Assembly (NCBI GenBank): GCA_016214285.1
Contig: JACROV010000017.1
Coordinates: 1 to 32,926 of the forward strand
DNA length: 32,926 nt
Direction: 5' to 3'
Source of the DNA: Candidatus Omnitrophota bacterium
GTDB lineage: Bacteria > Omnitrophota > Gorgyraeia > Zapsychrales > Zapsychraceae
Of this stretch, positions 3,969 to 32,119 are shown piece after piece. How positions within the stretch are numbered: the first letter of the stretch is position 1; each line of letters begins with the position of its first letter. The translations under genes were made by a program, and so were the position numbers. The notes under the pieces are model-generated. The model did no database searches. It was not told where the DNA came from and saw only the letters and a program-made list of their open reading frames with translations.

Positions 3969-4304
3969 ATGAGAGTCATTAGTCTTCAGTCATTAGTCTT
4001 TAGTCTGTTGTTTCTGGCGGGTTGTATGACGCAGACGGGCAACGTGGGCAACCTCCAGAGTTATTCCGCTCCGGCGCTTGAGGCGAAATGGATCCGCGAC
4101 GGCGAACCGATCGAATTCGAGGGAGCATTGTGGTACCCGGCCGACGGGATCGAAAGCTTGATGGATTCCGAGGTGTATCATATCGGCGAATATAAAGGCA
4201 CGCAGTTTTTTATCGACAAGCTCGATGTGCGCCCGTATGAACGTCTTTATACCAAGTACGGGAAAAATCAGTTCCGCTATTTCGAGAAGGAGAAACAGCC
4301 GTGA
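3969..4304 (+). CDS. Small lipoprotein of unknown function between mlaE and mlaF
   Basis: This 111-aa protein begins with a lipoprotein signal ending in the lipobox LAGC (Cys19). I do not recognise the mature domain. It is acidic-aromatic, with ALWYPADGIESLMD and YHIGEYKGTQFFIDK, and has no clear repeats. It sits between mlaE and mlaF and overlaps mlaF by four bases (GTGA), so it is almost certainly co-expressed and may be an accessory subunit of the lipid transporter. The entire hydrophobic core of the signal (SLQSLVFSLLF) is encoded by iterated AGTCTTTAGTCTG-type words identical in style to the intergenic repeats elsewhere. That makes this N-terminus probably repeat-derived. It is a real gene, judging from its operon position and tight spacing. 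Confidence 0.75.
   Translation: MRVISLQSLVFSLLFLAGCMTQTGNVGNLQSYSAPALEAKWIRDGEPIEFEGALWYPADGIESLMDSEVYHIGEYKGTQFFIDKLDVRPYERLYTKYGKNQFRYFEKEKQP
3970..4006 (+). repeat. Single arm of AGTC(T/A)T-word repeat inside a signal peptide (family 2)
   Basis: AGTCATTAGTCTTCAGTCA and the following AGTCTTTAGTCTG are iterations of the same word seen as a two-armed inverted repeat at 21905-21973. Only one arm is present here. It lies wholly inside the coding sequence and encodes residues 2-13 of the lipoprotein signal. Confidence 0.6.
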
Positions 4305-10907: not shown

Positions 10908-11042
10908 CTAAATTCGAAGCACGAAATCCGAAACAAGCACGAAATTTAAAACACTAAAAATTCAAAAAATGAAGTTGTTTTAACCATTTGAATTTAAAGT
11001 TTTGAGTTTGTTTCGGGTTTCGTACTTCGAATTTCGGATTTA
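10908..11042. repeat. Inverted repeat, word family CGAAGCACGAAA (family 5)
   Basis: The left arm is AATTCGAAGCACGAAATCCG followed by AAACAAGCACGAAAT. The right arm is GTTTGTTTCGGGTTTCGTAC and TTCGAATTTCGGATTT. It fills the gap between the GT2 gene and the small lipoprotein gene. A ribosome site (AAAGGGGGA) for the next gene lies just after it. Confidence 0.75.
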
Positions 11043-11057
11043 CACAAAGGGGGACAT

Positions 11058-11330
11058 ATGAACAAGAAAATAATTTTGTTGTTTTTAGTATCGGCCATCG
11101 TTGGGTGTACTTATGCCGGCGAACGGGAATTAAGCGATTATATCAATAAACCTTCCACGATAGTTCAGGACCCGCATTTCGGGAATTACAAAGAAAAACT
11201 TGACGCGCTTGAGAAGCAGTATTTGGAGAAAGAGATCACGTACGCGCAATATCTGGAGCAAAAGACCGCCCTGGACGATCAATATAATAAGGAAGTCGAG
11301 GAGCGCAACCAAAAGATCATGGGGCAATAG
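11058..11330 (+). CDS. Small coiled-coil lipoprotein
   Basis: This is a 90-aa protein with a conventional lipoprotein signal (MNKKIILLFLVSAIVGC, lipobox IVGC, Cys17). It is not repeat-derived, in contrast to several other lipoproteins in the window. The mature part is charged and helical. Its stretch LEKQYLEKEITYAQYLEQK resembles the SHOCT-type short helical motif (one helix, turn, ITxxxYxxxK). AAAGGGGGA upstream is a good ribosome site. It sits before a TrmH-type methylase, possibly in the same transcript. Function is unknown; it is likely anchored to the inner or outer membrane. Confidence 0.8.
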   Translation: MNKKIILLFLVSAIVGCTYAGERELSDYINKPSTIVQDPHFGNYKEKLDALEKQYLEKEITYAQYLEQKTALDDQYNKEVEERNQKIMGQ

Positions 11331-11349: not shown

Positions 11350-12075
11350 ATGAAACTGTTCGGTAAAAATCCGGTGATGGAACGTTTGCGGTCGAACCCG
11401 CAGAGCATCCGCAAAATCTTTATCCAGCCCGGCCTGCCGGAGGCCGCCTACATTTACAAAAAGGCCAAGCAGCACGGGATCCCGGTCTTCGCGGTCCCGG
11501 ACGCGAAGTTCGCGAAGATCAGCCGGACGCGCAATACCCAGGGCGTTCTGATGGACGTCGATGATTTCGCGTACGTCCCTTACGATGAATTATTGGAGAC
11601 CGCGGGAGAAAAAAAGCGTACCATTGTCTTTTTGGACAGCCTCAATGATCCCCAGAACCTGGGCGCGATCATAAGAAGTTTGGGTTGTCTGGCGGGGTTC
11701 GCCGTTGTTTTGCCAACGCATGATTCGGTCGGCGTCACCGAGGCCGTCTTGCGGGTCGCCTCCGGCGGGGACAATTACATCCCTGTCGCCCGGGTCGCCA
11801 ATTTGAACAACGCTATCAAGGCGGCCAAAGAGGCCGGATATACGATCGCCGGGGCCGTCGTCGATGGCGGGCAAAGCCTGTTTGAGACCAGCTTGCCGTA
11901 TCCTTTGGGCCTGGTCGTCGGGTCAGAGCAAAAAGGGATCCGGGACGTCATCCGCAAGTATTTGGACCTGGAGTTGACGATCCCCATGCCGGTCAACACC
12001 CTGTCATTTAACGTGGCGCACGCCACAACGATTTTTTGCTATGAGATCGCGAAACAGAAAAAAAACGCCAAATAA
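11350..12075 (+). CDS. TrmH/SpoU-family RNA 2'-O-ribose methyltransferase (RlmB-like)
   Basis: This is a SPOUT methylase that modifies ribose in rRNA or tRNA with SAM. The N-terminal substrate-binding domain begins KLFGKNPVMERL. The SPOUT motifs follow: LDSLNDPQNLGAIIRS (motif 1), LGLVVGSEQKGI (motif 2) and LTIPMPVNTLSFNVAHATTI (motif 3). I placed the start at ATG 11350 (ATG 11347 is possible), next to GAGAGG at 11339-11344. The tracked start at 11200 reads through the previous gene in another frame and is rejected. The length of about 242 aa fits RlmB/TrmH. It overlaps the HD gene by 35 nt. Confidence 0.9.
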   Translation: MKLFGKNPVMERLRSNPQSIRKIFIQPGLPEAAYIYKKAKQHGIPVFAVPDAKFAKISRTRNTQGVLMDVDDFAYVPYDELLETAGEKKRTIVFLDSLNDPQNLGAIIRSLGCLAGFAVVLPTHDSVGVTEAVLRVASGGDNYIPVARVANLNNAIKAAKEAGYTIAGAVVDGGQSLFETSLPYPLGLVVGSEQKGIRDVIRKYLDLELTIPMPVNTLSFNVAHATTIFCYEIAKQKKNAK

Positions 12076-12658
12076 GAACAATAAATCCGTCGTGAACGCC
12101 GTCAATCTTTTCGCCGAAGCGGGACTGCTCAAGAGGATCAAACGCAGCGGCTGGTGGGTGGCCGGCATCAAAGACCCCGAGAGCGTGGCCGAACATTGTT
12201 TCCGGTGCGCCGTCATGGCCTATTACATCGCGCACCTGGAGAAGGCGAACGTTTCCAGGGTGATGATCATGGCGTTGTTCAACGACGTGCATGAATCGCG
12301 CATCAATGACCTGCACAAGATGGGGCATTTTTACATTGATTTTAAGGAAGCGGAGAAAATGGTCTTTAAAGACCAGATCAAGGATCTGGACCGGTCCGTC
12401 AAAGGAGAGCTGGAGATCCTGCGTAAAGAATATGAGGCCCAGCGGACGAAGGAGAGTTTGGTTGCCAGAGATGCCGATATCCTCGAGTGCTTGCTCCAGG
12501 CCAAGGAATATTACGACCACGGCTATCTTAAGGCCGCGAAGTTTTTCAAGGCCGCGCCGGAGCATTTAAAGACGAAAACCGCCCGGCGGTTGTGGCGCGA
12601 GATTCAACAATGGGACAGCAGTGCCTGGTGGGAAAGGGTAGTTAAATTTGAAAGGTAG
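12041..12658 (+). CDS. HD-domain phosphohydrolase-like protein with an altered HD motif
   Basis: This 205-aa protein of the YfbR/HDDC2-like HD superfamily (COG1896 type) has the usual first metal histidine in DPESVAEHCFR (about residues 45-55). The motif that normally reads HD reads FNDVHESRINDLHKMG here, so His is replaced by Asn. The last Asp appears in ARDADILECL. Family members remove phosphate from 5'-deoxynucleotides. With one metal ligand changed, the activity is uncertain. The frame opens at ATG 12041 inside the methylase gene; GTG 12092 is an alternative start. The 3' end overlaps the M48 gene start region. Confidence 0.82.
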   Translation: MRSRNRKKTPNKNNKSVVNAVNLFAEAGLLKRIKRSGWWVAGIKDPESVAEHCFRCAVMAYYIAHLEKANVSRVMIMALFNDVHESRINDLHKMGHFYIDFKEAEKMVFKDQIKDLDRSVKGELEILRKEYEAQRTKESLVARDADILECLLQAKEYYDHGYLKAAKFFKAAPEHLKTKTARRLWREIQQWDSSAWWERVVKFER

Positions 12659-13547
12659 AGTTACCGGACATCCGGTGACCCGGATATCCGGATATCCGGG
12701 TCTTCTAGTCCCGGGTTCCCGGATAGCCGGATTCCCAAAATTCTTAGTCTGTAGTCTCTGGTCTGTAGTCTTTGGTCTGTTCCTGCAAGGCTGCGCCACG
12801 ATGTACAACCCCGCCATGGGCCGCGAAGAATTCATCTTGATCTCCACGCCCTCCGAAGTGGAAATGGGCAAAAGTATCCACGAGAGCATTACCCGGGAAT
12901 ATAAGCTTTCCAGGAATCCGGCGCAGGTCGACAGGGTCCGCCGTATCGGTGAACGTGTCGCCAAAGTTTCCGACCGGCAGGATTATGAGTATCATTTCTA
13001 TCTTATCGAAGAAGACGAGATGAACGCCTTCACGACGCCGGGCGGCAATATTTACGTTTATACGGGTTTGCTGGAAAAGCTTAAGAACGACGACCAAGTA
13101 GCGTCGGTGTTGGCCCATGAGATCGGGCATTGCGCCGCGCGGCATACGGTCAAGAAATTTCAGGCAGCGCTGGGATATGATCTGATCAGCAGAATTGTCC
13201 TCAGCCGTATCGGTGACGGGACCGCCCGGCAGATCACGGAGTTGAGCTCCAACGCGGCCATGAGCATCATTTTTTCCGCCTACAGCCGCAAGGATGAATA
13301 TGAAGCGGACCGGCTGGGGGTCAAGTATATGCATCTGGCCTGTTTCGATCCCGGCGCCAGTATCGAAACGTTCAAGATCCTGGAGGCCGATTCCAAAGGC
13401 CCCGACGTTCCGCTTATTTTGCGCAGTCATCCCTATATCCATGACCGTATCCGCATGGCGGAAGAAGAGATCAAAGCTCTGGGGAGCAAATATGGGCCTG
13501 CCTGCCGACGTAACTTATCGTTTGCCCAAATTCCTATTGTCCTGTAA
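12648..13547 (+). CDS. M48 family metallopeptidase lipoprotein (BepA/LoiP-like)
   Basis: This zinc peptidase of the periplasm or outer membrane has HEIGH at 157-161 and the third ligand in DEYEADRLG (Glu219). The N-terminus runs from TTG 12648. About 30 residues (such as VTRISGYPGLLVPG) come from CCGGATATCC-type repeats, then the hydrophobic core FLVCSLWSVVFGLFLQGC comes from AGTCTGTAGTC-type repeats and ends at the lipobox (Cys49). The N-terminal start is therefore uncertain, but the lipobox is convincing. BepA-like enzymes degrade stalled outer-membrane proteins such as LptD; BamD-like and LptE-like genes lie 2.6 kb downstream. A second M48 lipoprotein gene is at 24905. Confidence 0.87.
   Translation: MKGRVTGHPVTRISGYPGLLVPGSRIAGFPKFLVCSLWSVVFGLFLQGCATMYNPAMGREEFILISTPSEVEMGKSIHESITREYKLSRNPAQVDRVRRIGERVAKVSDRQDYEYHFYLIEEDEMNAFTTPGGNIYVYTGLLEKLKNDDQVASVLAHEIGHCAARHTVKKFQAALGYDLISRIVLSRIGDGTARQITELSSNAAMSIIFSAYSRKDEYEADRLGVKYMHLACFDPGASIETFKILEADSKGPDVPLILRSHPYIHDRIRMAEEEIKALGSKYGPACRRNLSFAQIPIVL
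12657..12782 (+). repeat. CCGGATATCC-word repeat followed by AGTCTGTAGTC-word arm (families 3 and 2)
   Basis: The first part iterates near-palindromic words such as CCGGATATCCGG and CCCGGATAGCCGG. The second is a single arm, TTAGTCTGTAGTCTCTGGTC, then TGTAGTCTTTGGTCTG. Both lie inside the M48 reading frame and encode its N-terminal region and signal core. Family 3 recurs at 22320-22425; family 2 at 3970 and 21905. Confidence 0.7.
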
Positions 13548-13606: not shown

Positions 13607-14035
13607 ATGCGCGTCATTTTTGCCATCCACGGGATCCGGAGCGCGAAGAAAGATAATTGGGTCTATAAATTTGCCGATTTCGTCGGCAAAGACCCGAGGT
13701 TTAAAGATGATCTCTCCGTTCCGTATCCATACGGGTTTCTTCTCGCTCTCGATTCTGTTAATCCCAAGACAAAATTTGATCATGTCAAAATGGTCATGAG
13801 GGAATTACGCGCGCTCACCGGCAAATATCCCGATGCCGGATTGAATATCGCCGCTCATAGTTACGGCACGGAATTAAGTTACCAGGCCATCAAGCGAAGC
13901 GGGGAGGACGGCAAGCCGCCGATCAAAGTCAACAAACTGATCCTCATCGCGAGTATCGTCTCCGCCCATCTCGAATATATTCTAGCCTTAATAAATTCTT
14001 CAATTCTTAATTATTTAATAGGGTTATGCCCTTGA
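13607..14035 (+). pseudogene. Truncated alpha/beta hydrolase
   Basis: The first 120 residues look like an alpha/beta hydrolase. There is an opening FAIHGIRS (oxyanion region) and a nucleophile elbow AAHSYGTE (about residues 84-91, G/A-x-S-x-G type), followed by NKLILIASIVS. At about 13975 homology and base composition change abruptly. The last 22 residues (ALINSSILNYLIGLCP) come from AT-rich DNA and the left arm of an inverted repeat. The C-terminal third, including the catalytic His, is missing. The likely reason is insertion or recombination with the mobile DNA that follows. It probably encodes no active enzyme, although the start and ribosome site are intact. Confidence 0.7.
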
Positions 14036-14110
14036 CTACCACTTCCAGCATACGATGGGCACGAAATCCTGTTGCACTGTTCATCAAAGGCATAACCCTA
14101 TTATTTAATT
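14009..14110. mobile_element. MITE-like inverted-repeat element (102 bp)
   Basis: Two 25-nt arms face each other: TAATAGGGTTATGCC on the left and GGCATAACCCTATTA on the right. They match at 22 of 25 positions, with a 52-nt interior that has a weaker internal hairpin (GATGGGCA / TGTTCATC). It has no coding capacity. It sits at the junction where the hydrolase ends and the restriction-modification remnant begins. Just beyond the right arm is AGAAGGGGACAGATTTG, which resembles a sequence I remember around REP-type elements with Y1 transposases. No transposase is nearby, so any movement would be in trans. Confidence 0.55.
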
Positions 14111-16129: not shown

Positions 16130-16139
16130 ATGCTAAAGT
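16111..16139 (+). promoter_or_regulatory. Candidate sigma70 promoter for the bamD-like gene
   Basis: A perfect TTGACA (16111-16116), a 17-nt spacer and TAAAGT (16134-16139) lie directly before the gene. If this is correct, the start at ATG 16130 overlaps the -10 box and translation would begin at ATG 16148 on an almost leaderless mRNA. Confidence 0.35.
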
Positions 16140-17110
16140 TTGCCAATATGCGTCGAGTTATAATATTAATATTATTCTTTTTGTTGAGCGGCACGACCTT
16201 GGTGCCTTCCCGCGGGTTTGCTTTCTGGGTCTGGACGCCGGAAACCAATAAATGGGTGAACCCCAAATATTCGGTCAAAGATACTCCTTCCGAACAGCTC
16301 GAATACGCCCTTGCCTTTTACAAATCCCAGGAATATAAAGAAGCTATCCAGGAATTGCGCAAGCTGATCGATCATTATCCCCGGGCCCGGGAAGCCGCCG
16401 ACGCCCAATATTACATCGGTGCCTGTTGGGAACAGATGGACAATCCCCAGGAAGCGTTCAAAAGTTACCAGGAGGTGGTCGACAAATATCCCTTTAGCGA
16501 GCGTTCGGCCGAGATCGTCCAGAAGCAGTACGATATCGCCGTGAAGTTGCTTGAAGGCCGGGATAAACGCGGGGTTTTGGCTAAGACGTTCTCCCTCACG
16601 GATTACACGGCCATCGATATATTCAAAGCGGTCATCAAGAACGCCCCTTACGGCAATCTGGCGGCGCCATCACGCTACAAGATCGGATTATATTACCTGG
16701 AAAATGGTTTGTATCAGGAAGCGAGGGATGAATTTGAGAAGGTGATGAACGATTATCCCGAGAGCGAGTGGGCCAAGGCCGCTAAATATCAGATCGCCGT
16801 TTCGGACAGCAAGCGTTCCACCGACGCTCAATACGACCAGAAGATCACGCAGGCCGCGGTCAAAGAATTCAAGGAATTCGCCGAACACTATCCCGACGCG
16901 GAACTTTCCCAGCAGGCCAAAGAGCAGATCCAGGGGTTGCGCGACAAGGAAGCGGAAAGCAATTTCCATATCGCCCAGTTTTACGAGAAGAACAAAAAAT
17001 ATGAATCGGCCAAGATCTATTATCAGAGGATCGTGGATGAGTTCCAGAATTCCCGCTGGACAGCCCAGGCGCTTAACAAGATCCGCGAATTGAGCCAGAA
17101 GGTGCAATGA
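16130..17110 (+). CDS. BamD-like TPR outer-membrane assembly protein
   Basis: This is a periplasmic protein of 326 aa (320 if it starts at ATG 16148, MRRVIILILFFLLSG). The signal peptide appears to end at SRGFA. Tetratricopeptide-type repeats follow through the whole chain, as in BamD/YbgF: LEYALAFYKSQEYKEAIQEL, IDHYPRAREAADAQYYIGAC, YLENGLYQEARDEFEKVM, NDYPESEWAKAAKYQIA. BamD is usually a lipoprotein, but there is no lipobox cysteine here. It may therefore be a soluble or differently anchored variant, or a CpoB-like protein. It is followed at once by an LptE-like lipoprotein (ATGA overlap), which supports an outer-membrane assembly role. A promoter candidate overlaps the start. Confidence 0.8.
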   Translation: MLKFANMRRVIILILFFLLSGTTLVPSRGFAFWVWTPETNKWVNPKYSVKDTPSEQLEYALAFYKSQEYKEAIQELRKLIDHYPRAREAADAQYYIGACWEQMDNPQEAFKSYQEVVDKYPFSERSAEIVQKQYDIAVKLLEGRDKRGVLAKTFSLTDYTAIDIFKAVIKNAPYGNLAAPSRYKIGLYYLENGLYQEARDEFEKVMNDYPESEWAKAAKYQIAVSDSKRSTDAQYDQKITQAAVKEFKEFAEHYPDAELSQQAKEQIQGLRDKEAESNFHIAQFYEKNKKYESAKIYYQRIVDEFQNSRWTAQALNKIRELSQKVQ

Positions 17111-17694
17111 ACAGAGACTATAGACCATCGACTATAGACTATCGACCGGCGTCAGTTATGTTCTCCCGATTTTTCAGGTCTATGGTCTATGGTCTATGGT
17201 CTATGGTCTTGATCGCCGGTTGCGGCTACACCACGAAGTCAACACTTCCTTCCAGCATCAAGACGATCCATGTCGAAACCTTCAAGAACAACATCGATTT
17301 TGCCGCTGAAGGGAGGCGCAATCTCTATTTGCCCCTGCTGGAGATTAAGGTCCGGAACGCGGTTATCAACCGATTTTTATTCGATGGGAATTTGAAGATC
17401 TCCGAGGCCGACAAGGCAGACCTTGTTTTGAAGGGACAGCTCCTGAGTTATGACCGGTCGGCGCTAAGGTATACGGATAATGGCGATGTCCAGGAGTACC
17501 GTGTCCACATTACGGTTTCTTTGGAGATGCACAACGCCCAAAGCGAAGAGGCTGTCTGGACGGAAACAGGGTTTGGGGGGGAAGCGACGTATTTTGTGAC
17601 TGGCGCGTCGGCCAGATCCGAGGAAGCCGCGGTTGAGGACGCCATTACGGACCTTGCCCGCCGGATCGTAGAACGCACGGTGGAGGATTGGTAA
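17107..17694 (+). CDS. LptE-like lipopolysaccharide assembly lipoprotein
   Basis: This 195-aa lipoprotein has lipobox IAGC (Cys39 from the ATGA-coupled start 17107; Cys22 from ATG 17158). The mature N-terminus GYTTKSTLPSSIKTIHVETF and the helix-strand pattern fit LptE, which helps LptD place LPS in the outer membrane. Later strands LVLKGQLLSYDRSALRY and YRVHITVSLEM agree. The start at 17107 overlaps the bamD-like stop. The signal region is encoded by an inverted repeat: the left arm gives NRDYRPSTIDYRP and the right arm gives RSMVYGLWSMVL. LptE homologues are weakly conserved, so the name rests on context as well as sequence. Confidence 0.78.
   Translation: MNRDYRPSTIDYRPASVMFSRFFRSMVYGLWSMVLIAGCGYTTKSTLPSSIKTIHVETFKNNIDFAAEGRRNLYLPLLEIKVRNAVINRFLFDGNLKISEADKADLVLKGQLLSYDRSALRYTDNGDVQEYRVHITVSLEMHNAQSEEAVWTETGFGGEATYFVTGASARSEEAAVEDAITDLARRIVERTVEDW
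17111..17212. repeat. Inverted repeat inside the lptE signal region, word GTCTATGG
   Basis: The left arm ACTATAGACCATCGACTATA and the right arm GGTCTATGGTCTATGGTCTA are complementary in words (CTATAGACC / GGTCTATGG). Both arms are read by the LptE-like frame and encode its charged N-terminus and its hydrophobic core. It is related to family 2. Confidence 0.7.
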
Positions 17695-22319: not shown

Positions 22320-22425
22320 TTAGAAGGATATCCGATGATCCGGGAATCCGGAATTAGGAAAACCGGATATCCGGATACCCGGATTTCCCAGTCACGGATG
22401 ATCGATGTCCGGATAACCTGTAGAG
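22320..22425. repeat. Palindrome-rich repeat, word CCGGATATCCGG (family 3)
   Basis: Words such as GATATCCGATGATCCGGGAA, CCGGATATCCGGATACCCGG and GTCACGGATGATCGATGTCC are iterations of CCGGATATCC and close variants, many of them palindromes in themselves. It fills the gap between ogt and the pil ATPase gene. The other copy lies in the M48 N-terminus at 12657. Confidence 0.7.
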
Positions 22426-22432
22426 AATAATT

Positions 22433-23515
22433 ATGACCCTCAAAGAACTATTCCAGCTCATGTGCGACAAGGAAGCTTCGGACCTGTACCTGAGGACCGG
22501 GGCCACCCCCCGCGCCCGCGTTAACGGCAAGATCGAGACGATCATTTCAGAGCCTTTGTCCAAACCCGACATGCAGGGCATCACGAACCTTTTGTTGGCC
22601 AGCGAGGTCCGTAAAAAGCATTTTTTGGAAAATTACGACATCGATTTTATCCACGAGGAACCGCAGGTGGGGCGCTTTCGGATCAATATTTTTATGCAGC
22701 GCGGGACCCCGGCCGTCGTCGCGCGCCACGTCCATATGCGGGTCAAAGATTTTGAGCAGCTTAATTTGCCGGCGGAATTGCTTAAGCAGGCTTGCGATGA
22801 ATCCAAAGGGCTTTTTTTAGTCTGCGGGCCCGCCGGAAACGGTAAATCGACCACCATCGCCAGCATGATCGAGTACATCAACGCGGTGTCGCCCAAGCAT
22901 ATCATCACCATTGAAGACCCCATCGAATTCTTGTTCCAGGACAAGAAAAGCATCGTCAACCAGCGCGAACTCGGCCTCGACGTCCAGTCTTATCCGATGG
23001 CGCTCAAGCACGTGACCCAGCAGAGCCCGGATATTATCTTTATCGGCAATATCCGCGACGAGCCGACCATGCGCGCGGCGATCACGGCGACCGAGCTGGG
23101 GGCGTTCGTCATCAGCACGTTCCACACGATCAACGCGGTCCAGACGATCATCCGCGTCGTCAATTTTTTTCCTCCGCACCTGCACGATGAGGTCCGGATG
23201 CAGCTTTCGCTTATTTTAAAAGGCACCATTTCGGTACGGCTCCTGACCCGCAAAGACGGTCATGGCCGCGTACCCGCGGTTGAAACGATGGTGGTCACCC
23301 CGACCATCGCGCGCTTGATCCGCGACGGGGAGATCCGCGAGATCCAGATGTATATCGATGAGGGCGCGCTTTTCGGGATGCAGTCGTTCAAAAAATCATT
23401 GGTGAAGCTGGTCAAAGACGGCCTGGTGGACCCGATCGAAGCGCGCAATTACGCGGACAGCAAGGATGAGTTCGACCTTGAGCTCAAAGGGATCAAACGA
23501 TATACCGATTCATAA
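22433..23515 (+). CDS. PilT/PilU-type twitching ATPase with altered Walker B
   Basis: This 360-aa hexameric AAA-type ATPase belongs to the type IV pilus retraction family. The N-terminal PAS-like domain opens SDLYLRTGATPRARVNG. Walker A is GPAGNGKSTT (about residues 133-142), the Asp box contains TIEDPIEF, and the His box is STFHTINA. The Walker B motif reads PDIIFIGNIRDEPT, whereas PilT and PilU have GExRD. The catalytic glutamate is therefore Asn. Either the subunit hydrolyses ATP poorly, or it depends on a second ATPase, as PilU depends on PilT. No other pilus gene is in the window. The C-terminal part ends in a PilU-like acidic tail region. Confidence 0.88.
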   Translation: MTLKELFQLMCDKEASDLYLRTGATPRARVNGKIETIISEPLSKPDMQGITNLLLASEVRKKHFLENYDIDFIHEEPQVGRFRINIFMQRGTPAVVARHVHMRVKDFEQLNLPAELLKQACDESKGLFLVCGPAGNGKSTTIASMIEYINAVSPKHIITIEDPIEFLFQDKKSIVNQRELGLDVQSYPMALKHVTQQSPDIIFIGNIRDEPTMRAAITATELGAFVISTFHTINAVQTIIRVVNFFPPHLHDEVRMQLSLILKGTISVRLLTRKDGHGRVPAVETMVVTPTIARLIRDGEIREIQMYIDEGALFGMQSFKKSLVKLVKDGLVDPIEARNYADSKDEFDLELKGIKRYTDS

Positions 23516-24329: not shown

Positions 24330-24908
24330 ATGAAACAACTCATTCTCGCTTCGCAGTCTCCGCAGCGCAGAAAACTGCTCAAGTTCTTGGGTCTGCGATT
24401 TGCTGTCAAGCCCAGCCGCGTCCAGGAGATCAGCAAGATCAAAACGACGTGTTCGGCGTTGGTGCAGGAAAACGCCCTGCGCAAAGCCCTCGACGTCGCG
24501 TCCCGTCTCAAAAGCGGGGTGGTAATCGGGGCGGACACGCTTGTGTACGTCGGGAACAAGCGTATCATCGGTAAACCGCGCGATCTTAAAGATGCCCGGC
24601 GGACCCTCAAAATCCTTTTTTCCCGCCCGCAATGGGTCTACACGGGGGTGGCGGTCATCGACGCGGCCACCGGCAAAACGCTGGTCGATTACGAGAAAAC
24701 CAAGATTTTTATGGTCCCGTTGACTGACGCGGAGATCACCCACTATCACCGCCGGATCAACCCATTTGACAAAGCCGGCGGTTTTCAGATCGAAGGATGG
24801 GGAAGCATCTTTATCCATCGCATCGAAGGATGTTATTCGAACGTGATCGGCCTTCCCATGGCGAAACTTGCCGGAATGCTGAAAAAAGTCGGCATCTCAA
24901 TATTATGA
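24330..24908 (+). CDS. maf: Maf family nucleotide pyrophosphatase
   Basis: This 192-aa house-cleaning enzyme hydrolyses non-standard or methylated nucleoside triphosphates. Family motifs are LILASQSPQRRKLL at the start, VVIGADTLVYVGNKRIIGKP (about residues 64-83), and the C-terminal block DKAGGFQIEGWGS then GCYSNVIGLPM. In usual Maf the first motif reads SxSPRR, close to SQSPQRR here. The stop overlaps the start of the M48 lipoprotein gene (ATGA). The upstream gap is a repeat, with no clear ribosome site. Identity is secure; the exact substrate (dTTP/UTP or m7GTP type) is not clear from the sequence. Confidence 0.92.
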   Translation: MKQLILASQSPQRRKLLKFLGLRFAVKPSRVQEISKIKTTCSALVQENALRKALDVASRLKSGVVIGADTLVYVGNKRIIGKPRDLKDARRTLKILFSRPQWVYTGVAVIDAATGKTLVDYEKTKIFMVPLTDAEITHYHRRINPFDKAGGFQIEGWGSIFIHRIEGCYSNVIGLPMAKLAGMLKKVGISIL

Positions 24909-25038
24909 GAGAAGAGAAGATGGAAGATAGAAGATGGAAAAAGATTGAGAAAAAACAGCCGCCTCTTTCTTCTTTTTTAGCCGCGCTCCGGTTTCGTCTT
25001 TCTTTTTTCCATTTTCTATTTTCTATCTTCTGCCTCAT
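24905..25038. repeat. Inverted repeat, word GAAGATAGAAGATGG, fully inside coding sequence (family 6)
   Basis: The left arm GAAGATGGAAGATAGAAGAT and the right arm TTTTCCATTTTCTATTTTC then TATCTTC are complementary. Both arms are read in one frame as the N-terminus of the M48 lipoprotein. The arms are separated by about 50 nt. Confidence 0.75.
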
Positions 25039-25768
25039 GATTTTAAGTGGTTGCAGCACCGAGTACAATCTCGCCACGCAACAGCAGGAAACGCTGATTT
25101 ACGGGACGGACAAAGAGGTGAGTATCGGCGAGGCCGTGTCGGCGAAAATGGAACAGCAGTATGATGTGGTGACCGACGTGGACGTCAATGAACGCGCGCG
25201 GCGCATCCTGGAGCGCGTCACGGCGGTCTGCGACCGCAAGGACATCGTGTATTTCGTCAAGGTGCTCGATAAGGATGTGATGAATGCCGTCAGTTTGCCG
25301 GGCGGCTACGTTTATATTTTTAAAGGATTGATGGACAAACTCGAAACGGATGATCAGATCGCCGGAGTTATCGCCCATGAAGTCGGTCACATCACGGCCA
25401 GGCACGCCGTCAAAAGGATCCAGAACGCCTATGGGGCCATGATCCTGCAGGGACTGGCGACACGCTCCAGCGCCAAGGTGGCCCAGGGGGTTAACTTCGC
25501 GTTGATCTCTCTTTTTTCGGAATATTCCCAGCAGGATGAATTCGAGGCCGACCGCCTGGGCGTCAAGTATATGAAGAAGGCTGGATATGATCCCAACGCG
25601 ATGGTCCAGGTGCTTGTCAAGTTAAGGGAAGAGCAGGAAAAAAGCCCGGCGCAGGAATACAGCTACTGGCGCACGCACCCGTTCATCCCCCAAAGGATCT
25701 CCGTCGTCAACCAGGCCATTACGGGCAAAATGGATTTTAAGGATTACCTGAACTTGATGGGGGAATGA
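24905..25768 (+). CDS. M48 family metallopeptidase lipoprotein (second copy)
   Basis: This is a 287-aa zinc metallopeptidase anchored by a lipobox, LSGC (Cys50). The zinc site is HEVGH (158-162) with the third ligand in DEFEADRLG (Glu214). The tail YWRTHPFIPQRI matches BepA/LoiP-type proteins that watch over outer-membrane biogenesis. I chose ATG 24905, coupled to maf by an ATGA overlap; the tracked start at 24797 reads through maf. The N-terminal region is made from an inverted repeat: the left arm gives MREEKMEDRRWKK and the right arm gives RLSFFHFLFSIFCLM, right before the lipobox. It is clearly related to the M48 gene at 12648. Confidence 0.88.
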   Translation: MREEKMEDRRWKKIEKKQPPLSSFLAALRFRLSFFHFLFSIFCLMILSGCSTEYNLATQQQETLIYGTDKEVSIGEAVSAKMEQQYDVVTDVDVNERARRILERVTAVCDRKDIVYFVKVLDKDVMNAVSLPGGYVYIFKGLMDKLETDDQIAGVIAHEVGHITARHAVKRIQNAYGAMILQGLATRSSAKVAQGVNFALISLFSEYSQQDEFEADRLGVKYMKKAGYDPNAMVQVLVKLREEQEKSPAQEYSYWRTHPFIPQRISVVNQAITGKMDFKDYLNLMGE

Positions 25769-26313
25769 TATTAATGAACAAATTACAAATTACAAATTAC
25801 AAGCAATGGACAATATCCAAATTACAAAATATCAATAAAATTTTATCATTTGGTCATTGTTGTTTTTGGTATTGTTTATTGTTTGTGATTTGTGGTTTGT
25901 TGTTTGGAATTTCTAGCAGGAGTTTTTCTCAAAATACCAGCCAGGTCTGCTTTAAAGAAAAATGCATCAACGTTGAAGTGGTCCAGAAAGAAGAAGAGCT
26001 TCACCGCGGGCTGCAGTTTCGAAAATCCCTCGATCCCGATAGCGGGATGTTATTTGTTTTCAAAAAAAGCTGGCCGTACGCGTTCTGGATGAAAGACACG
26101 CTGATCCCTCTGGATATGATCTGGATGGACGACACGCGAAGAATCGTTCATATCGAACATAACGTCCCACCCTGCACGGCGGATCCCTGCCCAAGCTACC
26201 CGCCCCGACATGAGGCGTTGTATGTCCTGGAGATCAACGCGGGATACGCTGAAGAACTCGGATTAAGACTGAGAGACACGGCGGAATTTAGATTAAAAGG
26301 GGCAGAGAAATAA
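25765..26313 (+). CDS. DUF192 family exported protein
   Basis: This 182-aa protein belongs to DUF192, a small beta-barrel domain of unknown function usually exported. The core is visible as VEVVQKEEELHRGLQFRKSL, GMLFVFKKSWPYAFWMKDTL, PLDMIWMDDTRRIVHIEHNV, and ALYVLEINAGYAEELGL. It starts at ATG 25765 (ATGA overlap) or ATG 25774. The first 60 residues come from a family 4 inverted repeat: left arm MNKLQITNYKQWTISKLQNI, right arm SFGHCCFWYCLLFVICGLLF. This gives a long signal peptide with a cleavage site near SRSFS. There is no clear lipobox. The 3' end enters a family 6 repeat, convergent with lpd. Confidence 0.83.
   Translation: MILMNKLQITNYKQWTISKLQNINKILSFGHCCFWYCLLFVICGLLFGISSRSFSQNTSQVCFKEKCINVEVVQKEEELHRGLQFRKSLDPDSGMLFVFKKSWPYAFWMKDTLIPLDMIWMDDTRRIVHIEHNVPPCTADPCPSYPPRHEALYVLEINAGYAEELGLRLRDTAEFRLKGAEK
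25774..25912. repeat. Long inverted repeat (family 4) fully inside coding sequence
   Basis: The left arm has AACAAATTACAAATTACAAA and GCAATGGACAATATCCAAAT. The right arm has TTTGGTCATTGTTGTTTTTG, GGTATTGTTTATTGTTTGTG. It is the same family as the intergenic repeats at 8227, 23520 and 27834, but here both arms are coding, at the start of the DUF192 gene. Confidence 0.78.
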
Positions 26314-29353: not shown

Positions 29354-32119
29354 TTACGAAATCATCGGATTCAGCTTCTTGGGATTTATTTCCAGCTTTT
29401 TGGCCGCTTGCTTGAGCACATCGGCTTTGATCTTTTTTTCCTTCGCGAGGGTCACCAGCGTGCCGAAGACGATATGGCGCGCGTCGACCTCAAAAAAGTC
29501 CCTGAGGGCTTTGCGGCTGTCGCTGCGTCCGAACCCGTCGGTCCCCAGCGATAACATCGGGCCCGGGACCCATTGCGCGATGCCATCGGGCATGATCTTC
29601 ATGTAATCCGAGGCGAAGATGAACACGTCGCCCTGGCCATGAAGGCATTTGGTCACGTAGGGGATTTCAGGCTTTTGCGCCGGGTTGAGCATGTTCCGGC
29701 GTTCGACGTGCAGGGCCTCGCGGCGCAGTTCATTGTAGCTGGTCACGCTCCAGACATCCGCGGCCACCCCATAATCTTCTTCCAGGATCTGCTGGGCCTC
29801 AAGGACCTGGTGAATGATGGCTCCACTGCCGAACAGTTGCGCGCGCGCCGCCGCTTTCTTCTTCCCGGAGGATTTGAATTTATACATGCCCTTGAGGATG
29901 CCGTCCCGGACACCTTCAGCCGGCAGGCTCCTCCCCCTCGGCCAAAGGCTCCCTGCGGGGAGGGGACCTATGGCTGCGGCCAAAGGCTCCCTGCGGGGAG
30001 GAGGCATCGGCGGCATGGCGTAATTTTCGTTGCCGACGCTGATGTAATAAAGAATATTTTCCTGTTTTTTGTACATGCGGTCGATGCCGTCACGGATAAT
30101 GACGGCCAGTTCGAAAGCGAAGGCCGGGTCATACGTGACGATGTTCGGGACGGTGGATAAAAGCACGTGGCTGTGGCCGTCCTGGTGCTGGAGGCCTTCA
30201 CCGTTAAGCGTGGTGCGTCCCGCGGTCCCGCCGATCAAAAAGCCGCGGCAGCGCGAATCCGCCGCCGCCCAGACCAGATCGCCGACGCGTTGCGGGCCGA
30301 ACATCGAATAATAGATGTAGAAGGGGATGGTGTTGATCCCTTGCGTCGAATACGCCGTACCGGCGGCGATAAACGAAGAAATGGCGCCGGCTTCATTGAT
30401 GCCTTCCTCAAGGATCTGTCCGTCCTTGGCCTCCTTGTAATAGAGGAGACTGTCTTTGTCCACGGGTTCATAGAGCTGTCCGACGTGTGAATAGATTCCG
30501 CACTGGCGAAAGAGGGCCTCCATGCCGAAGGTGCGCGCCTCATCGGGGATAATGGGGACGATGAGCTTGCCGATCTCTTTATCCTTGAGAAGTTTGGTCA
30601 GGATCCGGACGTAGGCCATGGTGGTCGAGACCTCGCGGCCCGCAGTCCCTTTGTAAAATTCTTCGAATAATTCGTCGGAGGGCGCGGGCAGCGGCTGGCT
30701 GGTCTCATGACGCGCGGGCATGTAGCCGCCTAAAGCCTTGCGGCGTTCATGCAGATATTTCATGACTTCGGAATCCGGGCCGGGTTTGTAAAACGGCGTT
30801 TCGGCGACGTCTTTGTCGGAGATCGGGATGTTAAAGCGCGTGCGGAATTGTTTCAGTTCGTCCTCGTTGAGCTTTTTCTGCTGGTGGCTGATATTTTTTC
30901 CTTCGCCGCTTTCGCCGAGGCCGTAGCCTTTGATGGTCTTGGCGAGGATAACGGTCGGCTTGCCTTTGAAGTCGACGGCCGCCTTGTAAGCCGCGTAGAC
31001 TTTTACGGGGTCATGCCCGCCGCGGCGCAGGTTTTCCAGGTCCTCGTCGCTTAAATGCCGGACCATCTCCAGCAGGCGCGGATCAGTGCCGAAGAAATTT
31101 TCGCGGATGTAGGCGCCGGATTCGACGGAATATTTCTGGTATTGGCCGTCGATGACCTCGCCCATGCGTTTGGCCAGAATGCCTTCCGTATCTTTTTCCA
31201 GCAAGGGATCCCAGTCTTCGCCCCAGATGACCTTGATCACGTTCCATTGGGCGCCGCGGAAGATCGCTTCGAGTTCCTGGATGATCTTGCCGTTGCCGCG
31301 CACGGGGCCGTCGAGGCGCTGGAGGTTGCAGTTGATGACGAAGATAAGGTTGTCGAGATGTTCGCGCGAGGCCAGATGGATCGCGCCGAGCGATTCCGGT
31401 TCGTCGCACTCGCCATCGCCCATAAAGACCCATATCTTGGCGTCGTCTTTCGGTTTCAGGCCCCGGTCTTCAAGATAACGCATGAACCGGGCCTGGTAAA
31501 TACCGGTTAGAGGCGCGAGCCCCATGGAAACGGTGGGGAACTGCCAGAAATTCGGCATGAGCCACGGATGGGGATAGGAGGAGAGCCCGCCGCCTTCTTT
31601 TAATTCCCGTCGGAAATTTTCGAGTTTTTCTTCGCTTAAACGGCCTTCCAAAAATGCCCGCGCGTAGACGCCGGGAGAGGCGTGTCCCTGGAAATAAACG
31701 AAATCGCCGCAAAAATTGTCCGTGCGCGCGCGGAAGAAATGATTGAACCCGACCTCGAACAAGGTCGCGGCGGAAGCGTAGGTGGAAATATGCCCGCCGA
31801 TGCCGGCCTCAGCGTGGTTGCCGCGAACGACCATCGCCATCGCGTTCCAGCGGATGATGCTTTTGATCTGGCGCTCAAGGTCACGGTTACCCGGATAGGA
31901 CGGTTGTTTGCTTTTGGCGATGGTATTAATATAGGGTGTGTTAACGGTAAAGGGGAGTGTGACGCCGGCTTCCTGGGCGCGGATCTGTAGCTGCTGGAGG
32001 ATCTTTTGGGCTTGTTCCGGGGACCCGTGCTTGAGGACATAATCCAGGGAACTCATCCATTCTTTGATCTCTATGTCATCGACCTCGGCTGCCCGACGAC
32101 GAAGCTCATCCGCGCTCAT
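29354..32119 (-). CDS. aceE: Pyruvate dehydrogenase E1, homodimeric AceE type, with a 28-residue insertion
   Basis: This is a 921-aa thiamine-diphosphate enzyme that decarboxylates pyruvate and acetylates E2. The TPP-binding motif is MGDGECDEPESLGAI (233-247), and the AceE signature VINCNLQRLDGPVRGNGKI follows. The pyrimidine-domain and transketolase C-terminal regions are recognisable (GSGAIIHQVLEAQQIL). AAAGGAAA precedes ATG 32119. Relative to AceE proteins, residues 707-734 are extra: the usual join MPAMP/EG is split as MPPMP...EG by a stretch starting PPRREPLAAAIG. It is the first gene of the operon. Being a surface or linker loop, the insertion need not abolish activity, but this is untested. 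Confidence 0.95.
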   Translation of the reverse strand: MSADELRRRAAEVDDIEIKEWMSSLDYVLKHGSPEQAQKILQQLQIRAQEAGVTLPFTVNTPYINTIAKSKQPSYPGNRDLERQIKSIIRWNAMAMVVRGNHAEAGIGGHISTYASAATLFEVGFNHFFRARTDNFCGDFVYFQGHASPGVYARAFLEGRLSEEKLENFRRELKEGGGLSSYPHPWLMPNFWQFPTVSMGLAPLTGIYQARFMRYLEDRGLKPKDDAKIWVFMGDGECDEPESLGAIHLASREHLDNLIFVINCNLQRLDGPVRGNGKIIQELEAIFRGAQWNVIKVIWGEDWDPLLEKDTEGILAKRMGEVIDGQYQKYSVESGAYIRENFFGTDPRLLEMVRHLSDEDLENLRRGGHDPVKVYAAYKAAVDFKGKPTVILAKTIKGYGLGESGEGKNISHQQKKLNEDELKQFRTRFNIPISDKDVAETPFYKPGPDSEVMKYLHERRKALGGYMPARHETSQPLPAPSDELFEEFYKGTAGREVSTTMAYVRILTKLLKDKEIGKLIVPIIPDEARTFGMEALFRQCGIYSHVGQLYEPVDKDSLLYYKEAKDGQILEEGINEAGAISSFIAAGTAYSTQGINTIPFYIYYSMFGPQRVGDLVWAAADSRCRGFLIGGTAGRTTLNGEGLQHQDGHSHVLLSTVPNIVTYDPAFAFELAVIIRDGIDRMYKKQENILYYISVGNENYAMPPMPPPRREPLAAAIGPLPAGSLWPRGRSLPAEGVRDGILKGMYKFKSSGKKKAAARAQLFGSGAIIHQVLEAQQILEEDYGVAADVWSVTSYNELRREALHVERRNMLNPAQKPEIPYVTKCLHGQGDVFIFASDYMKIMPDGIAQWVPGPMLSLGTDGFGRSDSRKALRDFFEVDARHIVFGTLVTLAKEKKIKADVLKQAAKKLEINPKKLNPMIS
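29918..30001 (-). repeat. GC-rich palindromic element (family P), tandem pair inserted in frame in aceE
   Basis: Two 25-bp copies, identical to each other (29939-29963 and 29977-30001, 38 nt apart), contain GGCTCCCTGCGGGGAGG on the plus strand. The outer ends GGCTCCTCCCC and GGGGAGGAGGC are near-inverted. The insertion is 84 nt, exactly 28 codons, so the frame is kept. The two copies are read in different frames (PPRREPLA versus LPAGSLWP). Confidence 0.88.

Follow-up and report, generated by a model that had tools for sequence, protein, structure and literature searches.

Rickettsia palindromic elements (RPE) are hairpin repeats of about 100-150 bp and are treated as tolerated insertions (Ogata et al., 2000; reviewed in PMC2229807). 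The review describes them both between genes and in frame inside conserved protein genes. Among the small mobile sequences of enterobacteria, RU-1 and RU-2, one putative exported protein has been reported (Delihas, 2007, PMC2759123). Nematomorph mitochondrial genes contain coding palindromes with both inverted-repeat arms translated, and the arms encode conserved regions (PMC6649704). REP/BIME elements are defined in PMC3733652 by a palindrome of 20-40 bp with a GTAG or CGTC tag. Coding palindromes as a kind are known from RPE and from RU-2. Literature searches for such repeats in Omnitrophota yielded nothing relevant.

In the uncultured Omnitrophota bacterium studied here and in its relatives, the DNA indicates that short N-terminal export tags have repeatedly been overwritten by unrelated hairpin repeats which are still readable as tags. 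As with RPE, hairpins occur between genes and in frame inside conserved genes, where the frames are open and translation is predicted. RPE families share sequence according to the review (PMC2229807), whereas the copies described here do not follow one family consensus; many word families share words and not loops. The coding copies here also differ from RPE in lying in leaders, while a GC hairpin in aceE of the same genome does look RPE-like. Compared with the single putative exported protein of RU-1/RU-2, the genes concerned comprise LptE, two M48 lipoproteins, DUF192 and GspG, in different genera and with repeats of several unrelated families. Translation of both arms, known in nematomorphs, is predicted here, but the leader is expected to be cleaved. 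Within these searches, the repeated occurrence in one set of conserved envelope genes, the several unrelated families, a two-family chimera and the contrast to cytosolic genes are new.

The window, i.e. the whole stretch of DNA analysed, comprises 32,926 bp and is the entire contig C1 of a 1.82-Mb genome in 104 contigs. Genome samples covered about 731 kb of its own genome (G000), 591 kb of a sister genome (G005) and 335 kb of a third (G019). All genomes are metagenome-assembled, and gene and signal calls were made by simple scripts of the author. The ortholog comparison covered 150 N-termini of five genes (LptE, DUF192, the lipoprotein at 3969 and both M48 lipoproteins). Ortholog queries consisted of mature parts only, so that the N-terminus had no influence on the search. 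The cases are partly related by descent, and the ortholog counts are therefore not all independent events. Coordinates are collected in Table 1.

Table 1. Genes, leader elements and intergenic elements of the window (positions in nucleotides of the window).
Feature	Position	Strand	Remarks
Small lipoprotein gene, hydrophobic core coded by AGTC words	3969-4304	+	single arm, ~3976-4012; orthologs L226-L230
Hairpin element in spacer	10910-11034		upstream of ordinary lipoprotein gene 11058-11330; inverted-repeat score 30
HD-domain phosphohydrolase gene	12041-12658	+	Pfam HD_3 1.9e-25; stop 12656-12658 overlaps M48 gene start
M48 peptidase lipoprotein gene (M48a), TTG start	12648-13547	+	Pfam Peptidase_M48 1.9e-36; alternative start GTG 12675-12677
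CCGGATATCC-type palindromic element (CCGG element), in frame	12663-12735	+	codes TGHPVTRISGYPGLLVPGSRIAGF; perfect 26-nt palindrome 12677-12702
AGTCTGTAGTC-type 3' arm (AGTC arm), in frame	12741-12782	+	codes hydrophobic core FLVCSLWSVVFGLF; 2 and 1 stops in other frames
Lipobox LQGC	12783-12794	+	+1 Cys codon 12792-12794; from sequence
LptE gene	17107-17694	+	Pfam LptE 5.4e-16; start ATG overlaps BamD-like stop (ATGA)
LptE leader arms AGACTATAGACC / GGTCTATGGTCT	17115-17147, 17177-17209	+	inverted-repeat score 23
Intergenic CCGG element copy	22330-22404		upstream of ORF 22433-23515
Second M48 lipoprotein gene (M48b)	24797-25768	+	Pfam M48 5.7e-32
M48b leader arms AGAAGATGG / CCATTTTCT	24915-24942, 25004-25031	+	inverted-repeat score 22
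DUF192 protein gene	25765-26313	+	Pfam DUF192 1.6e-30
DUF192 signal arms CAAATTACAAATT / GGTATTGTTTATTG	25779-25821, 25864-25906	+	inverted-repeat score 23

The M48a leader extends from 12648 to 12794. Its TTG opens the frame MKGRVTGHPVTRISGYPGLLVPGSRIAGFPKFLVCSLWSVVFGLFLQGC and lies within the final codons of the HD gene, at the identical place in the orthologs L009, L019, L021, L022 and L031. The HD/M48 junction is found upstream of many M48 orthologs. A sequence-only reading had described this N-terminus as a chimera of two repeat families, and the analysis bears this out: a CCGGATATCC-type element is followed by a AGTCTGTAGTC-type arm that ends at LQGC. Nor is there an in-frame start that leaves out both repeats. 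TTG 12648 and GTG 12675, both 5' of the AGTC arm, are the only candidates; the next start in frame, ATG 12801, comes after the cysteine. The N-terminus (MKGRVTGHPVTR...FLVCSLWSVVFGLFLQGC) shows an n-region with K/R, a hydrophobic core and a lipobox with the +1 cysteine; export, lipidation and cleavage are predicted. Each of the 30 M48a orthologs fetched was assigned a lipobox. Besides the Pfam match, membership in the M48 peptidases is indicated by the HEIGH motif (HExxH), which is invariant in alignment A1. With about 48 residues counted from TTG or 39 counted from GTG, the leader is long, and its h-region falls below the usual strength. Further copies of the CCGG part occur in the window (Table 1), at L036 and L068 of the same genome, and at L104 of G005.

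The AGTC arm of the window gene has no complementary 5' partner. M48a orthologs of G003 and G005 retain both AGAC/GTCT arms, with start codons between them. In the window genome, 5' arm and loop are absent and a CCGG element stands in their place. The chimera probably formed when the CCGG element replaced the 5' arm and the loop of an older AGTC element. A second chimera, in which a GGTCTTTGGTC arm follows a CCGG element, is located at L104 4628-4850 (G005); it has an inverted-repeat score of 39 and encodes a predicted signal of a GGDEF-domain protein (L104 4595). Since this arrangement recurs at the GGDEF gene, two-family chimeras exist at two different genes.

Matching of leader DNA against a library of intergenic arms recovered some families and missed the AGTC arms. 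For this reason, chance was assessed by 5000 random synonymous recodings of the same peptide. Direct repeats inside the M48a leader were rare among the recodings (p=0.002 for the AGTC part, p=0.0008 for the CCGG part), as were the inverted repeat of the CCGG part (p<0.0002) and a 13-nt direct repeat in the 3969 lipoprotein (p<0.0002). A pattern search for AGTC words revealed no excess over a reversed control and was dropped as evidence. The spacer hairpin at 10910-11034 provides a natural contrast: the element lies outside the leader, and the leader of the downstream lipoprotein at 11058 is non-repetitive (p=0.61).

Local inverted repeats of comparable strength number 17 in the window versus 0-1 in shuffles, and 164 in the 731 kb of the genome; a 295-kb part held 67, with none after shuffling. 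They belong to many word families and a few MITE-like families. The word families differ from one another, their loops are unrelated and vary in length, and fixed ends of the MITE type were not seen among the word elements. Arms reach about 60 nt and loops up to about 190 nt. One MITE-like element of the window, at 14009-14110 (TAGGGTTATGCCCTTGA, a 48-nt loop, TCAAAGGCATAACCCTA), has many copies in the genome sample. It ends the ORF 13607-14035, and a gene seems to have been split by it.

The earlier count of five repeat-coded signals among seven signal-bearing window proteins was reproduced (genes at 3969, 12648, 17107, 24797 and 25765), the exceptions being the 11058 lipoprotein and the BamD-like protein at 16130. 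All five repeat-coded leaders belong to abutting genes. Both ordinary leaders follow spacers, one of them the element-bearing spacer at 10910-11034. At LptE, the ATGA overlap with the upstream gene (CAATGA junction) is kept in G000, G005, G001, G003 and G021, and the whole element is situated 3' of it. This overlap pins the start, so that the leader includes the loop as well as both arms. The BamD-like leader contains a perfect 16-nt AT palindrome at 16160-16175 (ATAATATTAATATTAT), rare under synonymous recoding. It was set aside because it is a member of no word family seen in this analysis.

The extension of this count to signals in general was not supported, with a much lower genome-wide share and elements no commoner at exported-protein genes. 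By eye, 4 of 14 convincing lipoproteins in the G000 sample were repeat-coded, all four in the window. The corresponding count in G005 was 5 of 13, four being orthologs of window genes. The window is locally rich in such leaders, and its 5/7 is not a genome-wide value, because only about 1 of 18 sampled lipoproteins other than window genes and their orthologs is repeat-coded. The listing of the 335-kb sample of G019 contained no new element-coded leader. Enrichment at exported-protein genes was tested and none was seen: an element lies near the start in 99 of 780 genes without predicted signal (12.7%), in 20 of 164 with an SPI signal (12%) and in 4 of 27 with a strict SPII signal (15%).

The two gene classes differ in what the element does at the start. 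In G000 and G005, elements near starts are necessarily coding in about 13 of 16 exported-protein genes and in 0 of 18 cytosolic ones (Fisher 6e-7), the class having been assigned by hand in these 34 cases. At cytosolic genes (DnaE, NadE, LexA, RecR, PanB, PurH, PyrF and others), the start codon follows the element. The median spacer to the upstream gene is -1.5 nt for element-coded leaders versus 54.5 nt for ordinary ones (p=0.002), a statistic that partly depends on the use of leftmost starts, since an open element shifts these upstream. In prepilin-like proteins, the leader ends in a word-element arm just before the KG|FTLIEL or KKG|QSILEY site (L104 15507, L110 15112). The pattern is one of position plus tolerance, not of recruitment. 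Prepilin-like leaders ending in arms were also noted at L110 15769 (G005) and L070 626 (G000).

Many orthologs of the five genes possess an ordinary leader whose ATG comes immediately after the upstream stop. In others, an inverted repeat occupies this place, and its family differs between genera. The M48b leader is built of AGAAGATGG words in G000, G005 and G021, of AAATCCGAAATTCG in G003, of ACCAATAACC in G038 and of CACAGGACAC in G034; in G019 it is a MITE. M48a leaders show AGAC/GTCT words in several genera and CAAATTACAAATC in G017. The ortholog searches show that, in different genera, leaders of the same genes have been taken over by several unrelated word families and by one MITE. In 28 of the 150 N-termini, a local inverted repeat ends within 75 nt of the mature start. 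Where the distance is 61 nt or less, 25 of 26 have an open frame and a start preceding the 3' arm; a few of these open cases (L033, L163, L138) are weak or fall outside the word elements, and some share a common descent. The exception, L202, whose element ends 52 nt upstream, is closed and starts after the element, and the same holds for L028 (66 nt). Among intergenic A-first elements, 62 of 294 frames (21%) pass the same test. Element-coded leaders are longer than ordinary ones (median 34 versus 19 residues, p=7e-6) and have slightly weaker h-regions (2.67 versus 2.92, p=0.003). G019 harbors a different repeat (TACTGACTTCCGCAAAAGTAATGG ... CCATTAGTTGTGCGGAGGTCAATA; L336-L349) near several gene starts and in its M48b leader (L173).

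The findings are probably best explained by hairpin elements that arise at the DNA level, hit leader DNA without targeting, and are tolerated and reused there, with export by them predicted. The genome holds many families of inverted repeats, DNA-level elements in this reading, made of short repeated words. Their members lie where genes meet, predominantly in tandem arrays of genes, with no preference for exported proteins. Where a spacer is present, the element would sit within it and the gene would start after the element. Between abutting genes, the sole dispensable junction DNA would be the leader segment of an exported protein, and an element could survive there if its frame is open. For a leader, basic or polar residues ahead of a hydrophobic core would suffice. 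If the 5' arm of an inverted repeat is A-rich, this arm would supply polar or basic residues and its T-rich complement hydrophobic ones. Because the reverse complements of A-rich codons are hydrophobic, such an A-first repeat reads as n-region and then h-region on either strand. The demands on a leader are small and are roughly met by an A-first repeat, so that elements would be tolerated and become a working leader. The mature protein would stay ancestral, as would its lipobox or cleavage site. Random sequence is reportedly often able to serve as an export signal (Kaiser et al., 1987).

A stronger version regards hairpins with A-rich 5' arms as a standing supply of export leaders that repeatedly and adaptively replaces old signal peptides, nested two-family chimeras included. 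This is unlikely. Signal-like sequences were found in 9 of 90 A-first strands and in 0 of 50 T-first strands of intergenic elements (p=0.03), and the rate for A-first elements is low, 10% versus 6% in shuffles. A-first geometry helps, yet it is not sufficient for a signal, and the effect of a ready-made signal is weak.

Regulatory RNA hairpins, in which the arms pair in the mRNA and control downstream translation with coding as a side effect, would account for a folding of the window elements that is much stronger than that of shuffles (z -4.0 to -8.3) and for their place near starts in tandem gene arrays. Selection for RNA hairpins would favour G-T over A-C mismatches on the sense strand. In the arms of tandem arrays, the two are equally frequent in three genomes (147:139, 91:83 and 24:22), so that selection at the RNA level was not seen there. 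Furthermore, one of the AGTC arms has been lost from the M48a copy, and about 13% of all genes carry an element, whatever their class. A regulatory role of this type is accordingly quite improbable, and the complementarity of the arms would have DNA-level reasons, either recent insertion or template switching.

In an annotation artefact, T-rich arms would be open by chance, the real starts would follow them, and leaders of this kind would not exist. Cytosolic genes do behave in this way: at DnaE, LexA, RecR, PanB and others, leftmost starts run into the 3' arm and an ATG follows. The leaders of exported proteins argue against it. M48a lacks any start between the AGTC arm and the cysteine, the start of LptE is fixed before the element by the conserved ATGA overlap, and all 30 LptE and all 30 M48a orthologs, with or without elements, were assigned a lipobox. 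The open frames of leader-region elements (25/26) also exceed the 21% expected, and an artefact is considered very unlikely. Targeted recruitment, i.e. insertion into or selection in leaders of elements as better or switchable export signals, is scarcely credible: it would suit the strikes of different families on the same genes in different genera and the n-region-then-h-region order of A-first geometry, but exported-protein genes are not enriched for elements, element-coded h-regions are the weaker ones, and abutting genes explain the position.

Under the preferred reading of untargeted, tolerated elements, leader regions would be a place where repeats turn into protein. Signal peptides evolve fast and seldom show where they came from; in these genes, the donor DNA can still be recognised. 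Many genera offer the same gene for comparison, with or without an element, and several unrelated families have had this effect. Two testable questions follow, namely what the minimum requirement for a leader is, and why repeats spreading between genes enter certain genes and not others. For annotation, repeat DNA may form the leader where genes abut, and start calls of cytosolic genes falsely extend back into repeats.

The RPE-like hairpin in aceE (29354-32119) is located at 29930-30015 on the minus strand. It is GC-rich, contains two GGCCAAAGGCTCCCTGCGGGGAGG copies and adds about 28 in-frame residues to the pyruvate dehydrogenase E1. In relatives aligned on both flanks, query residues 1 to ~100 and 129-200 were matched and the insert was absent. 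Among the genomes searched, it occurs in the window genome only and represents a clean RPE-like insertion in a cytosolic enzyme.
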